From Moraxellaceae bacterium (lineage in GTDB: Bacteria; Pseudomonadota; Gammaproteobacteria; Pseudomonadales; Moraxellaceae), in assembly GCA_030680295.1 (NCBI GenBank), contig JAUXVU010000001.1, positions 1-64,000 of the forward strand: 64,000 nt of DNA, given 5' to 3'. Positions within the stretch are counted from its first letter, which is position 1; every line of letters starts with the position of its first letter. A program made the translations under genes and the position numbers. The notes beneath the pieces are model-generated. The model had not been told where the DNA came from. It ran no database searches and saw only the letters and a list, made by a program, of their open reading frames with translations. Below are positions 2,365 through 37,417 of the stretch, in pieces.

Positions 2365-3420
2365 TCAAAGTGAAAACTCATTAGTGTCATCGGGCATGGT
2401 ATCGATACTATCCCGTGTTGCTTCATTAGGATAATCATTCAAATCGCATATAGGCTCTGGCTCTGGCTCTGGCTTTATAAAAAGGTCATCTAAAAAATCA
2501 AAGTCATCAGTATTAAACGTGTCGGCGAAACATAACTTTGCATCTTCTATTATTTTATAACGATAGTTAAGGGACAGATCAAAGCGTTGGTATCTTTTTT
2601 TCCTAAAATTAACAAGCCTCATCAAATCTTGATAATACTCATCAACATTATTAGTATTTTCATTTTTGAAGTTCATGGATTTTTTATCTACCTCAAGTAG
2701 GCTTTCATTTGAGAAAACAAAATCCTCCGAATAGATCGCTCCCCTCAAAAACAATACTTTATTATCGTCATGATTCTTAAAAGCCAAGGATTTTTTATAT
2801 GCCTTTTGAAAAGTGAGCTGATAGTTCTCCAAAAATTTTATTAGCCCCTCCCTTGAAGTTATTCTTCCATTAAAAATATTCTTGCCAACCTCAATATGCA
2901 GATATTTTTTAACTTCTATATCACGACCAGAATCGTAGCGGCCAAAATAAATAACTCCATTATTAATTGGATCTTTAGGCGAATTTAGATTGTATTTTGC
3001 ATTAACATAATCACAAAACCTACGACAAAAATCACGATCAAGATCTGGTAGAAATAAGTCAATACTTCTTAATGTCACAAGATCAACGCAGGGTATAACA
3101 AAGTTTAACTCTAAATTTTGTTTATCCTTATGCCTCACCCATAAAAAATTAATTTGATGCGGAAGTAAGTTCCCACGAACAACATCCATGAATAAATTGA
3201 TTATTTCTAACTGCAAATCATGCTCTAAATCTTTCTCAGTGAATGCCAAACATCCACTAATATATCTTTTTTTAAATTTTAAGCTGTCAATAATATTGCA
3301 CGTCAGTATGGGCGAACCCGTTATAATTGATGCGTCTTTACGTTTGAAATCAACTCCCAACAAGTAGTTAATACAGTCACGCCCTGACCGCTGGCTAGTT
3401 TTAAATATTTTCAGGATCAT
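2365..3420 (-). CDS. ColE1-type (MOB-P, HEN) relaxase
   Basis: A 351-residue mobilization relaxase of the MbeA/MobA family. The expected catalytic residues are all present at the positions known for ColE1 MbeA: Tyr19 in N-Y-L-L-G, and the HEN signature His97, Glu104 and Asn106 in the segment W-V-R-H-K-D-K then L-E-L-N-F. It would nick oriT and stay attached to the transferred strand. It is shorter than MbeA (about 517 residues), so the C-terminal part is reduced; a P-E-P-E-P-E-P tract lies near the end. It overlaps the upstream MobC-like gene by 20 bp. The gene is distinctly more AT-rich than the housekeeping genes, consistent with horizontal transfer. No helicase domain is seen. Confidence 0.75.
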   Translation of the reverse strand: MILKIFKTSQRSGRDCINYLLGVDFKRKDASIITGSPILTCNIIDSLKFKKRYISGCLAFTEKDLEHDLQLEIINLFMDVVRGNLLPHQINFLWVRHKDKQNLELNFVIPCVDLVTLRSIDLFLPDLDRDFCRRFCDYVNAKYNLNSPKDPINNGVIYFGRYDSGRDIEVKKYLHIEVGKNIFNGRITSREGLIKFLENYQLTFQKAYKKSLAFKNHDDNKVLFLRGAIYSEDFVFSNESLLEVDKKSMNFKNENTNNVDEYYQDLMRLVNFRKKRYQRFDLSLNYRYKIIEDAKLCFADTFNTDDFDFLDDLFIKPEPEPEPICDLNDYPNEATRDSIDTMPDDTNEFSL

Positions 3421-3802
3421 TAAAATACAATCGTGAAATCATAAAAATTTCAATTGCTTTAATCAGCTTGTGAACATTCACGTCATAGTCGCAACATTCG
3501 TGCTTCCAGATCGTCGCATTTAAGCACGCAATTGCAGCCGTCAATTGGCCGATTATCTTAAGCTCTTCTTGGCTATATCTATAAAACGGTGGCAACACTT
3601 CCTCGCATTCGACATTCCCCTTGGAGAGAGGTTTTGTGCACTGCTCAGCCAACAAGACATCTCTTGCCCAAGTCGCCACACATGCCCGATCGGAGGACGA
3701 CTTTATGCGACTCTCCTCCACCTTGGTTAGTCGAATCTTTAGTACCTGTGTTCGCTTATGCGAAACAGTTTTTGGTAAGTCTTTACTCACGTTGCTGATC
3801 AT
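3401..3802 (-). CDS. MobC-like relaxosome accessory protein
   Basis: A 133-residue protein with an N-terminal ribbon-helix-helix-like segment (about residues 20-52: K-I-R-L-T-K-V-E-E followed by a helix ending W-A-R-D-V-L-L). This pattern is typical of MobC/MbeC-type proteins that bind oriT and assist the relaxase. The C-terminal part is helical and unassigned. The gene is directly upstream of the relaxase and overlaps it by 20 bp, the usual mobC-mobA order. Similarity is modest, so the call relies partly on position. Confidence 0.6.
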   Translation of the reverse strand: MISNVSKDLPKTVSHKRTQVLKIRLTKVEESRIKSSSDRACVATWARDVLLAEQCTKPLSKGNVECEEVLPPFYRYSQEELKIIGQLTAAIACLNATIWKHECCDYDVNVHKLIKAIEIFMISRLYFNDPENI

Positions 3803-4140
3803 AAAGCGGGCCCTCCGTCCTCACTTGCTAGGGGAGGATGAGCCACTTTACCAGCACCGTCAACCACTAATTTTACACAAGCTATTGATATAATTAGATT
3901 ATTTGTGTCATAAGTGCGCATAACACGTCACATGCATTCACGACACATCAAAAATATTTTTGCAGCATGATCTAGCGTCAAAGCGAGGGGTTTTCGCTAT
4001 CTAACGCATTGATATCGGCATGGCTTAGTTGTTTTAGCTATTAGTCGCTTCAGAACGTGTCACAAGGTGCCACGTTCAAGCAAGCATCCGAGTGGTGGGA
4101 TTTGTGGTGGGAGCCGTCAATTTTTTAGGTTTTAGAAATG
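3803..4140. other. Intergenic region with candidate oriT
   Basis: About 340 bp upstream of the mobilization genes with no gene. TGGCTTA at 4021-4027 (followed by GTTG) resembles the ColE1/pMB1 nic region, which as I recall reads CTGG/CTTA. A small hairpin, AGCGA (3982-3986) with TCGCT (3994-3998), lies just upstream. A second inverted repeat, GAACGTG-N11-CACGTTC (4053-4077), lies downstream. Position and signals fit an oriT, but the nic call rests on a short match. Confidence 0.4.
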
Positions 4141-4141
4141 A

Positions 4142-4168
4142 CGAAACCCGCTTGGTTAGCGGGTTTCG
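4142..4168 (-). terminator. Rho-independent terminator of tRNA-Ser
   Basis: A perfect 10-bp GC-rich stem (4142-4151 with 4159-4168) with a 7-nt loop lies 11 bp beyond the tRNA 3' end. The sequence after the stem on the - strand is only moderately U-rich. Confidence 0.6.
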
Positions 4169-4179
4169 GGCACAAATAG

Positions 4180-4270
4180 TGGCGGAGAGTAAGGGATTCG
4201 AACCCTTGAGGGGCTTATGACCCCTACTCCCTTAGCAGGGGAGCACCTTCGGCCACTCGGTCAACTCTCC
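4180..4270 (-). tRNA. tRNA-Ser (anticodon GCU)
   Basis: Cloverleaf readable on the - strand: a 7-bp acceptor stem (GGAGAGT with ACTCTCC), a discriminator G and encoded CCA (4180-4182), an anticodon loop CTGCTAA giving anticodon GCU, the long variable arm expected for serine tRNA, and a GGTTCGAATCC T-arm. Its 3' end faces the mobile island to the left. The 3' ends of tRNA genes are common integration sites, though I found no second copy of the tRNA end in the window. Confidence 0.95.
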
Positions 4271-4348
4271 GTCAAGGTGGGCGATGATACAGAGACTGGC
4301 CAAGAATTAAAAGACCGAAGTGCCTGAAAAACATCCCATCAGCAAAGT

Positions 4349-4546
4349 TTACTCAGCATCTTCCTGAGCAGGCACTTCGCCACGCTCATTTTGGATGCGT
4401 TGGTAAATTTCTTCACGGTGCACAGCAACATCTTTAGGTGCATTCACGCCAATACGTACTTGGTTTCCTTTCACACCCAAAACAGTCACAGTGACTTCAT
4501 CACCGACCATTAAGGTCTCACCTACGCGGCGCGTTAAAATTAACAT
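4349..4546 (-). CDS. csrA: Carbon storage regulator CsrA/RsmA
   Basis: A 65-residue RNA-binding regulator that dimerises and binds GGA motifs in mRNA leaders, controlling carbon metabolism, motility and biofilm formation. The protein begins [10 protein letters not shown] and contains the conserved V-H-R-E-E-I-Y segment with the RNA-contacting arginine. The start is set by GGAG 8 bp upstream; a longer in-frame extension is unlikely to be translated. It follows lysC and precedes tRNA-Ser, the order alaS-lysC-csrA-tRNA-Ser seen in pseudomonads and relatives. Confidence 0.95.
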
Positions 4547-35176: not shown

Positions 35177-36451
35177 ATGAACAAACTACTTTCGCCTTTA
35201 GCTGCAGCTGTGGTCCTTGCGTCCAGCACTGTTGCTTCAGCTAATGAAGGAGACACTCTACCTAATGTTGGTCAGAAGAGTCTTTACCATGTATACATCG
35301 GTGCCATGTATAACCAACCTGATCGTGACCGCCAATTAACAGATTATGGTTATGGCTTCACTGGTGCAGTTGGCATTCCACTGAACAGCATTTCTAACCG
35401 TCTATTTTTAGAACTTGGCGGTTCACAAACTACTTATCGAACTGGCCGTGCCACTAACTCTCAAGGCGCAAGTCAGCAAGTTCCTGTCGACTTCTACCGT
35501 CGCGATCTAACAGGCAACTTACAATATGCCTTTGGCAATCGTGATGAGTTAACACCATTCTTATTAGCAGGTGTTGGCGTAGCCCGAACAGACGTAGCAC
35601 TAGGCGAAAACGACCGTACTCATTTCACTGCTAGCGTAGGTGCCGGATTAACAAGCTTAATGTTTAGCGATGTCGTTCGTGGCCGCGTTGATGTGCGCGG
35701 CGTATATGATGACTACTCCAATAATCTGTTTGATGCCGTGTTAACTGCAGGTATCGAAGTAGCACTGGGTCGTAGCCGCGGTGAAACGATTATTAAAACA
35801 GTCGACCGCATTGTAGAAAAAGAAGTCCCCGTTGAAGTTGCTACAATTAAAGAAGTTGTCAAAGAAGTAGAGCCTCTAGACACTGACGGCGATGGTATTC
35901 CTGATTATCGTGATGACTGTCCTGACACGCTTAAAGGTGCTCGCACAGATAACCGTGGTTGTGCTTTAGGTCAAACACTCACCATTGAAAATGTTGAGTT
36001 TGAATTTAATAAAGCGACACTAACGCAAGCATCAATGCCTATTCTTGATGCTGCAGCCAAGTTCTTGAATAGCCAAGACAATTTAAATGTTGTTGTGGCT
36101 GGTCATACCGATGACATTGGCAGCGATCAATATAATCAGAAGCTCTCTGAATCACGCGCCAACACAGTGGTCAAAGCTTTACTCGATCGCAACGTTCGCG
36201 CCAATCGCTTAAAAGCACTTGGACTTGGTGAAAGCTTCCCACGCGTTCCAAACGACTCACAGGAAAATCGTGACCGTAACCGTCGTGTTGAATTCTTGCT
36301 CTCGGCAGCTGATCGTCCTGACAAAGTCATCAATCAACAAGTGCCAGATGCAACTACAGAGCCAACATCTGATGCACAAACAAACACTGAAACACCAGCT
36401 GAGTTGCCATCCCCAATTCTTGCTGCAGAACCTGCTGCTGAAACCAATTAA
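35177..36451 (+). CDS. OmpA/OprF-family outer-membrane protein
   Basis: A 424-residue protein with a signal peptide (residues 1-22, ending T-V-A-S-A), an N-terminal eight-stranded beta-barrel (about 35-215), a linker with valine- and glutamate-rich repeats (V-E-K-E-V-P-V-E-V), a thrombospondin type-3-like calcium motif (D-T-D-G-D-G-I-P-D) followed by C-P-D-T-L-K-G and a cysteine, and a C-terminal peptidoglycan-binding OmpA domain (G-H-T-D-D-I-G-S, S-x-x-R-A-N-T-V, N-R-R-V-E-F). A ~50-residue Thr/Pro/Glu-rich tail follows. It probably anchors the outer membrane to peptidoglycan. It is followed 19 bp later by a lipoprotein gene, probably in the same operon. Confidence 0.9.
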   Translation: MNKLLSPLAAAVVLASSTVASANEGDTLPNVGQKSLYHVYIGAMYNQPDRDRQLTDYGYGFTGAVGIPLNSISNRLFLELGGSQTTYRTGRATNSQGASQQVPVDFYRRDLTGNLQYAFGNRDELTPFLLAGVGVARTDVALGENDRTHFTASVGAGLTSLMFSDVVRGRVDVRGVYDDYSNNLFDAVLTAGIEVALGRSRGETIIKTVDRIVEKEVPVEVATIKEVVKEVEPLDTDGDGIPDYRDDCPDTLKGARTDNRGCALGQTLTIENVEFEFNKATLTQASMPILDAAAKFLNSQDNLNVVVAGHTDDIGSDQYNQKLSESRANTVVKALLDRNVRANRLKALGLGESFPRVPNDSQENRDRNRRVEFLLSAADRPDKVINQQVPDATTEPTSDAQTNTETPAELPSPILAAEPAAETN

Positions 36452-36470
36452 TTAAGCTGTGAGACTGACT

Positions 36471-37355
36471 ATGAACATTAAATCAATATTACTAACCACC
36501 GTGTTGGCGTTTGCAACACTCGGCATGACAGCCTGTGATGAGTCACGTGGCAATGACTTCCAAGGTGCTGCAGGTCAAGACGGCCAAGATGGTCAAGATG
36601 GTCAAGACGGAGAAGATGGCGATGACTTTGATCGCGATGTATTCTGCGCAGCAAACCCTGACAACATCATTTGTACTGACGACATTGATGAGTTCTGTGC
36701 CATCGATGCAAATAAAGACAAGTTTGTTTGTGATGATGACATACAAGAGTTTTGTGGCCGCGAAGAAAATGCTGAGAGACCAATTTGTGTTGGGATCCCA
36801 GGAGAGGACGGTGCTGACTTTGATATCGTGAAGTTCTGTGCAGATAATCCCGCAAATCCGATTTGCGATGACCGTGATGCGTTCTGTGCAGAGAACCCTA
36901 ACAACGTAATCTGTCAAGAAGTTGAAGAGCCAGAAACAGGTGGCTTGATCTTCAACGTACAAGAAACAACAGCAGGCCTGCTAAATGGAACGCCACTCGA
37001 AGTACTGAATGACGGCCTAAATACTTTAGTAGACCCACAAGATGGCGTTTTATCTCCTTTAACTGGCGCACTCGAGTCAGCTAGTGATGATGGCGGCCCA
37101 CTTGCTCCAGTAAGAGATGGTGTTAATACATTACTTGTACAGCCGGACTCATTACGTGTTGTGATCGATGCTTTGAATCAAATATTAAAAGTGTTGGATC
37201 CATCAGCCTTAGGTGGTGGTGTACCTGGATTACCTGATGCAGGTGGTGGTGCGCCCGCACTTCCTGGCCTAGATGCTCTACCAATTGATCAGGCATGTGC
37301 GATTCCTTTTCTTGGCCCACTGCTAGTTCAAGGAGCAGGCGGTAGCTGCGAATAA
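36471..37355 (+). CDS. Collagen-like, cysteine-repeat lipoprotein (novel)
   Basis: About 294 residues. From ATG 36471 it has a lipoprotein signal ending L-G-M-T-A-C. Then comes a short collagen-like tract (G-Q-D-G-Q-D-G-Q-D-G-E-D-G), then five repeats of the pattern acidic-x-F-C-x(7-10)-C with N-P-x-N between the cysteines in three of them, broken by a second short G-E-D-G-A-D stretch. The second half has no cysteines until the end: a helical region, a Gly/Pro/Leu-rich tract (G-G-G-V-P-G-L-P) and a final C-A-I-P to G-S-C-E pair. It is very acidic. I know no family with this layout. It follows the OmpA-family gene and ends at a strong terminator. A surface or periplasmic role with disulfides or metal binding is inference. 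Confidence 0.75.
   Translation: MNIKSILLTTVLAFATLGMTACDESRGNDFQGAAGQDGQDGQDGQDGEDGDDFDRDVFCAANPDNIICTDDIDEFCAIDANKDKFVCDDDIQEFCGREENAERPICVGIPGEDGADFDIVKFCADNPANPICDDRDAFCAENPNNVICQEVEEPETGGLIFNVQETTAGLLNGTPLEVLNDGLNTLVDPQDGVLSPLTGALESASDDGGPLAPVRDGVNTLLVQPDSLRVVIDALNQILKVLDPSALGGGVPGLPDAGGGAPALPGLDALPIDQACAIPFLGPLLVQGAGGSCE
36573..36617 (+). repeat. Five 9-bp tandem repeats coding for G-Q-D units
   Basis: Units of GGTCAAGAC/T with small variations encode the Gly-Gln-Asp collagen-like tract of the lipoprotein. Such an array can change length by slippage without breaking the frame. Confidence 0.75.
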
Positions 37356-37373
37356 TTGAGCCTGACTCGATGC

Positions 37374-37403
37374 AAAAAAAAACCGGCGAAAGCCGGTTTT
37401 TTT
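37374..37403. terminator. Bidirectional terminator between the lipoprotein gene and lysS
   Basis: A stem CCGGC-GAAA-GCCGG flanked by an A tract on the left and seven Ts on the right. It serves both convergent transcripts. Confidence 0.88.
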
Positions 37404-37417
37404 ATCAAAAATACAAT

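Follow-up and report, generated by a model that had tools for sequence, protein, structure and literature searches.

A mosaic repeat lipoprotein encoded behind an OmpA-type protein gene in a freshwater Perlucidibaca sp.

What kind of protein is encoded by the short gene that lies between an OmpA-type protein gene and lysS in the genome of a freshwater Perlucidibaca sp., and what could it do there? The locus was analyzed within a window of 64,000 nucleotides, which is the whole stretch of DNA considered here. Translation of the open reading frame at 36471-37355 gave a lipoprotein of 294 residues, with the layout listed in Table 1. An in-frame GTG is found upstream, at 36459, and is a less likely start than the ATG. 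The original prediction of a lipoprotein with a lipobox, a collagen-like tract, five cysteine-containing repeats and a C-terminal Cys pair was confirmed as a whole, while the spacing within the repeats, the number of G-X-Y triplets and the division of the repeat array were refined.

Table 1. Features of the OmpA-type gene, the lipoprotein gene and their terminator (positions in the window).
Feature	Position	Strand	Basis
OmpA-type protein gene	35177..36451	+	PF00691 76.3 bits, PF13505 33.4 bits, both above cut-off
Mosaic repeat lipoprotein gene, 294 aa	36471..37355	+	Translation; lipobox LGMTAC, residues 17-22
Signal peptide and lipidated Cys22; mature N-terminus CDESRGND	36471..36536	+	Sequence
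Seven G-X-Y triplets (GAAGQDGQDGQDGQDGEDGDD) from 9-bp tandem repeats	36564..36626	+	Sequence; Pfam Collagen sub-threshold
FC repeat 1, FCAANPDNIIC	36642..36674	+	Motif count
FC repeat 2, FCAIDANKDKFVC	36693..36731	+	Motif count
FC repeat 3, FCGREENAERPIC	36750..36788	+	Motif count
Three further G-X-Y triplets (GIPGEDGAD), residues 108-116	36792..36818	+	Sequence, internal alignment
FC repeat 4, FCADNPANPIC	36834..36866	+	Motif count
FC repeat 5, FCAENPNNVIC	36882..36914	+	Motif count
Helical repeat domain, residues 157-242 (TPL..V..L...L.DPQ.G.L.PLT..L.....GGPL..)	36939..37196	+	Profile A1
Gly/Pro-rich linker	37209..37286	+	Sequence
C-terminal Cys-pair module CAIPFLGPLLVQGAGGSC	37296..37349	+	Motif recurrence in paralogue and sister genomes
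Bidirectional intrinsic terminator, lipoprotein gene / lysS	37376..37403	+	12-bp hairpin, minimum-energy fold 37340-37412, z -3.72

The GC contents at the three codon positions were 0.66/0.42/0.34 in the lipoprotein gene and 0.62/0.43/0.33 in the ompA-like gene; the two were the same in this respect, as expected for a real gene. Only 19 bp separate the ompA stop codon from the ATG of the lipoprotein gene, and no terminator-like site was found in this gap. The strong hairpin terminator lies after the second gene, between it and the convergent lysS, in agreement with the claim of an OmpA-family neighbor with a common terminator. Because of the short gap and the terminator located only after the second gene, the two genes are probably co-transcribed as a two-gene operon. 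The first gene product has an N-terminal beta-barrel, a short TSP3-like linker and a C-terminal peptidoglycan-binding OmpA domain. Beyond the OmpA domain it carries a Thr/Pro/Ala-rich tail of ~45 residues (36300-36451), which is absent from its two nearest relatives.

The predicted lipobox was read directly in the translation, and the protein shares this feature with the other Perlucidibaca lipoproteins that carry the helical domain described below. It contains 13 cysteines (residues 22, 59, 68, 76, 87, 95, 106, 123, 132, 139, 148, 276, and 293). The first G-X-Y tract comprises residues 32-52 and is proline-free. Its encoding by 9-bp tandem repeats was also as predicted, with a period of 9 and 4.2 copies (86% matches) at 36573-36610. 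The score against Pfam Collagen (PF01391) was 15.5 bits, below the cut-off of 27.2. Matches of the lipoprotein to PHROG tail fibers were weak and fell mostly on this tract, and they were discounted. The three further G-X-Y triplets divide the FC array into three plus two repeats, and a second internal superunit begins there.

The number of FC repeats agreed with the five acidic-x-F-C-x(7-10)-C units described before, but the inner spacing took only two values (8, 10, 10, 8, and 8 residues in repeats 1-5). In 20,000 shuffles of the mature protein, FC-x(7-10)-C never occurred more than twice; the five repeats are therefore not due to chance. The stretch from GEDGDDFD onward aligned with that from GEDGADFD onward with a score of 103, compared with 82 for the best of 2000 shuffles, and thus the array probably arose through internal duplication. 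The DNA identity between repeats was 0.86/0.68/0.41 by codon position, and the spacing, the phenylalanine and the cysteines were kept although the DNA had diverged. The array is acidic, with 28 acidic vs. 7 basic residues in 101.

As the original prediction had supposed, the repeat type is unfamiliar. Nothing usable was found in Pfam, where the best hit was Cys_rich_FGFR (E 1.6), and NCBIfam, PHROGs, PDB and the phage and plasmid collections gave no usable match. The FC region matched only the source genome, whether 274 genomes of the class were searched with the protein or 369 with a degenerate DNA pattern. The whole lipoprotein had no relatives among GTDB contigs and viral contigs. TSP3 (PF02412) gave no profile match in the lipoprotein, and the hhalign comparison of the FC repeats with a TSP3 protein gave a probability of 0.2%. 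As far as sampled, the FC repeat appears to be an orphan repeat type confined to the source genome.

The second half of the protein is different in this respect. It is free of cysteines and followed by a Gly/Pro-rich tract and one Cys pair, as had been noted, and it is here that the claim of no family with this layout failed: the claim holds for the FC repeats, whereas the second half contains a helical domain that recurs elsewhere, and the Cys tail is likewise a recurrent module. The lipoprotein alone, used as a query, retrieved proteins of four sister genomes as well as a paralogue from the source genome, with E-values down to 9.6e-11 and through residues about 148-294. Ten aligned copies defined a domain of 87 residues with 15 invariant columns, which the window copy retains. 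The profile built on them (A1) recovered every copy in the paralogues and matched the window copy, itself one of its 10 rows, with an i-E of 1.2e-34 (108.7 bits). The domain was present in lipoproteins of five of the seven Perlucidibaca genomes, and a survey of the order (293, then 390 genomes) found it only in Perlucidibaca and one other family (genome G519). Two adjacent G519 lipoproteins (L051:2-2260 and 2574-4355) have four to five copies each. One of them starts with an extended GND/GAN collagen tract, which scores 46.6 bits against Pfam Collagen, and the other has a DPNNPNDP linker in its place; since either is joined to the same helical domains, the linker is exchangeable. In P. aquatica, another large low-complexity lipoprotein without Pfam match (L055:1579-3048) is encoded upstream of the three-copy helical-domain gene.

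The domain is probably all-helical. An assignment to the PF15984 middle region was rejected: hmmscan gave no match in the lipoprotein, and comparison with a true PF15984 protein by hhalign showed no profile similarity (probability 6%). PF15984 was found neither in the source genome nor in 149 genomes of the family, where no control matched either, although the model matched a true member strongly elsewhere. Among PDB entries, only designed armadillo repeats were matched (E about 3e-4, no stretch passing alone), which is not homology and gives a hint of helical-repeat character. Two AlphaFold models were poor, with mean pLDDT values of 42 and 47. Confidence, low overall, peaked around FC repeats 4-5 and the C-terminal tail (block means 57-69); repeats 4-5 were modeled as a short helix bearing FC, a turn and then the Cys, and the second half as all-helical at low confidence.

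The window lipoprotein has a single copy of the C-terminal module CAIPFLGPLLVQGAGGSC; the paralogue (L054:7536-8567) has eight copies, a protein of G002 four and one of G005 two. This paralogue is a lipoprotein that consists almost wholly of eight CAIPxLGP..AG..C modules, and it scored 34.3 bits against Pfam helix-hairpin-helix (cut-off 24). It may have converged on an LPGIGP-like motif, or it may be a genuine helix-hairpin-helix array that is secreted.

Comparison with sister species showed that the position behind ompA is occupied by different lipoproteins. In genome G002, the gene order pntA / ompA / lipoprotein / lysS is that of the source genome, and the lipoprotein has 718 residues with 10 TSP3 repeats (Pfam TSP_3 155.8 bits). 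In P. aquatica (G001), ompA is directly followed by a TSP3 lipoprotein of 1173 residues, and the two genes together have the opposite orientation with respect to lysS. The corresponding loci, with the ompA-type gene followed by the large TSP3-repeat lipoprotein gene, are L029:342-5040 and L030:1795-5076. In a further genome (G004), ompA is at a contig end, and a TSP3 lipoprotein gene begins near the start of a different contig. The source genome contained no relative of the TSP3 lipoprotein at E <= 1e-10. Because no resemblance between FC and TSP3 repeats could be detected, it looks as if one lipoprotein had been replaced or recomposed and not as if the repeats had simply diverged. Occupancy of this slot, known from two sister genomes, is the best evidence that adjacency to OmpA matters, and it favors a functional link. 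In G005, an OmpA-type gene is found beside a giant repeat protein gene in an apparent type I secretion operon (L062:3-8963), whose translations were assigned by eye to an outer-membrane factor, an ABC transporter and an HlyD-like protein.

Judged by its sequence, the protein belongs with the collagen-like or low-complexity repeat lipoproteins of Gram-negative bacteria, the FC repeats being the unmatched part. Collagen-like lipoproteins of the Burkholderia cepacia complex (BCAL1523, BCAL1524, and BCAM0695) carry PF15984, Collagen_mid (PMC10224339). Like them, the window protein is a lipoprotein with N-terminal G-X-X' repeats, an ordered recurrent middle domain and low-complexity flanks (PMC10224339); however, its middle domain is not PF15984, and the FC repeats and the Cys tail are extra. 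The ~87-residue domain is common to it and the Perlucidibaca and G519 helical-domain lipoproteins, among which one G519 member combines collagen tract and domain; none of those examined has FC repeats, and most have two to five domain copies. The TSP3 lipoproteins of P. aquatica and G002 share the slot, the lipid anchor and an acidic Cys-containing repeat array with the window protein, but their repeats are not detectably similar and they have an additional domain that it lacks. The streptococcal Scl2/SclB adhesins also have a G-X-Y tract; however, they differ in anchoring and domains (15 bits vs. cut-off 325).

Here, the favored reading, for which we consider the chances about even, is that the second gene of the operon encodes a mosaic, disulfide-stiffened stalk lipoprotein with an OmpA-type partner, probably at the cell surface. 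The first gene would supply an outer-membrane protein with a barrel and a peptidoglycan-binding domain, and the second a lipid-anchored rod or stalk of interchangeable modules. In the rod, the collagen-like tract would be a flexible spacer, and five small disulfide-closed FC loops would stiffen the acidic part, which would hold one helical repeat domain away from the membrane at the distal end; a disulfide would cap the tail. The rod would probably serve as a spacer or adhesive, anchored in the envelope and paired with the OmpA-type protein. We infer the disulfides, the stalk function, the physical partnership and the surface exposure from these features. A bolder form is a long shot: the FC repeats would represent a minimal disulfide-loop repeat fold that is new, the stalk would stand at the surface on its OmpA-type partner, and each species would place its own stalk lipoprotein in the slot for species-specific surface contact.

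The mature N-terminus bears on the membrane in which such a protein would be anchored. In Escherichia coli, lipoproteins with Asp at +2 and Asp, Glu or Gln at +3 are strongly retained in the inner membrane through Lol avoidance (PMC6469965). The lipoprotein has Asp-Glu at +2/+3, and because CDES fits this pattern, inner-membrane anchoring is possible. The protein would then be periplasmic, barred from the Lol pathway, and its acidic FC array might, for instance, form a scaffold or spacer beneath OmpA. At +2, the listed relatives mostly have Gly, Asn or Ser, and Asp is found also in the eight-repeat paralogue. However, the rule is species-dependent, Asp+2 occurring in 3 of 17 listed Pseudomonas aeruginosa inner-membrane lipoproteins (PMC6469965), and T2SS surface lipoproteins such as pullulanase have Asp+2 as well (PMC12802150). 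Collagen-like lipoproteins elsewhere have been predicted in the outer or the inner membrane. In Acinetobacter and Klebsiella, residues past the lipidated Cys help direct T2SS lipoproteins to the surface, and those of Acinetobacter have a GGG or ND(N/D) type N-terminus with Gly/Ser-rich or Asn/Asp-rich P1'-P8' (PMC12802150); compared with these motifs, CDESRGND is mixed and a clear case of neither. We regard a periplasmic, inner-membrane-anchored protein as rather unlikely.

The acidity of the array and the TSP3 lipoprotein in the same slot of sister species would also suit a cation-binding rod, in which Asp/Glu-rich Cys loops bind calcium and replace the calcium-binding TSP3 rod. This appears improbable, since the FC repeats contain no DxDxDG loops and their profile did not resemble that of the TSP3 protein. 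The two-protein layout also recalls the contact receptor TraA/TraB of Myxococcus, in which a barrel protein with an OmpA domain holds a Cys-rich stalk protein at the surface: TraB consists of a barrel, a TSP3 linker and an OmpA domain, and TraA has a Cys-rich stalk (PMC12045341). The linker and OmpA part of the window OmpA-type protein matched the NCBIfam TraB model (5.1e-25), but its score of 87.5 bits was below the cut-off of 700, and the match covered the generic OmpA part only and was surpassed by other OmpA families. The lipoprotein has far fewer than the > 70 cysteines expected, no recognition domain was found, and Pfam/NCBIfam searches detected no TraA features (variable domain, MYXO-CTERM) in it, so a receptor of this kind is hardly to be expected. 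Finally, the tandem DNA repeats and the absence of FC-part orthologs from all genomes searched might indicate that this low-complexity lipoprotein evolves fast and has no specific role in the slot. The invariant columns kept in the helical domain and the FC pattern kept over diverged DNA speak against this, and we consider it very improbable.

The locus shows how a few exchangeable envelope modules, namely the collagen-like spacer, the FC loops, the helical domain and the CAIP-LGP Cys module, are recombined inside a single genus. It also shows an ompA-linked slot whose repeat lipoproteins are unrelated from one species to another. If the OmpA partnership is true, the locus would offer a simple system for what stalk lipoproteins do for OmpA-type proteins.
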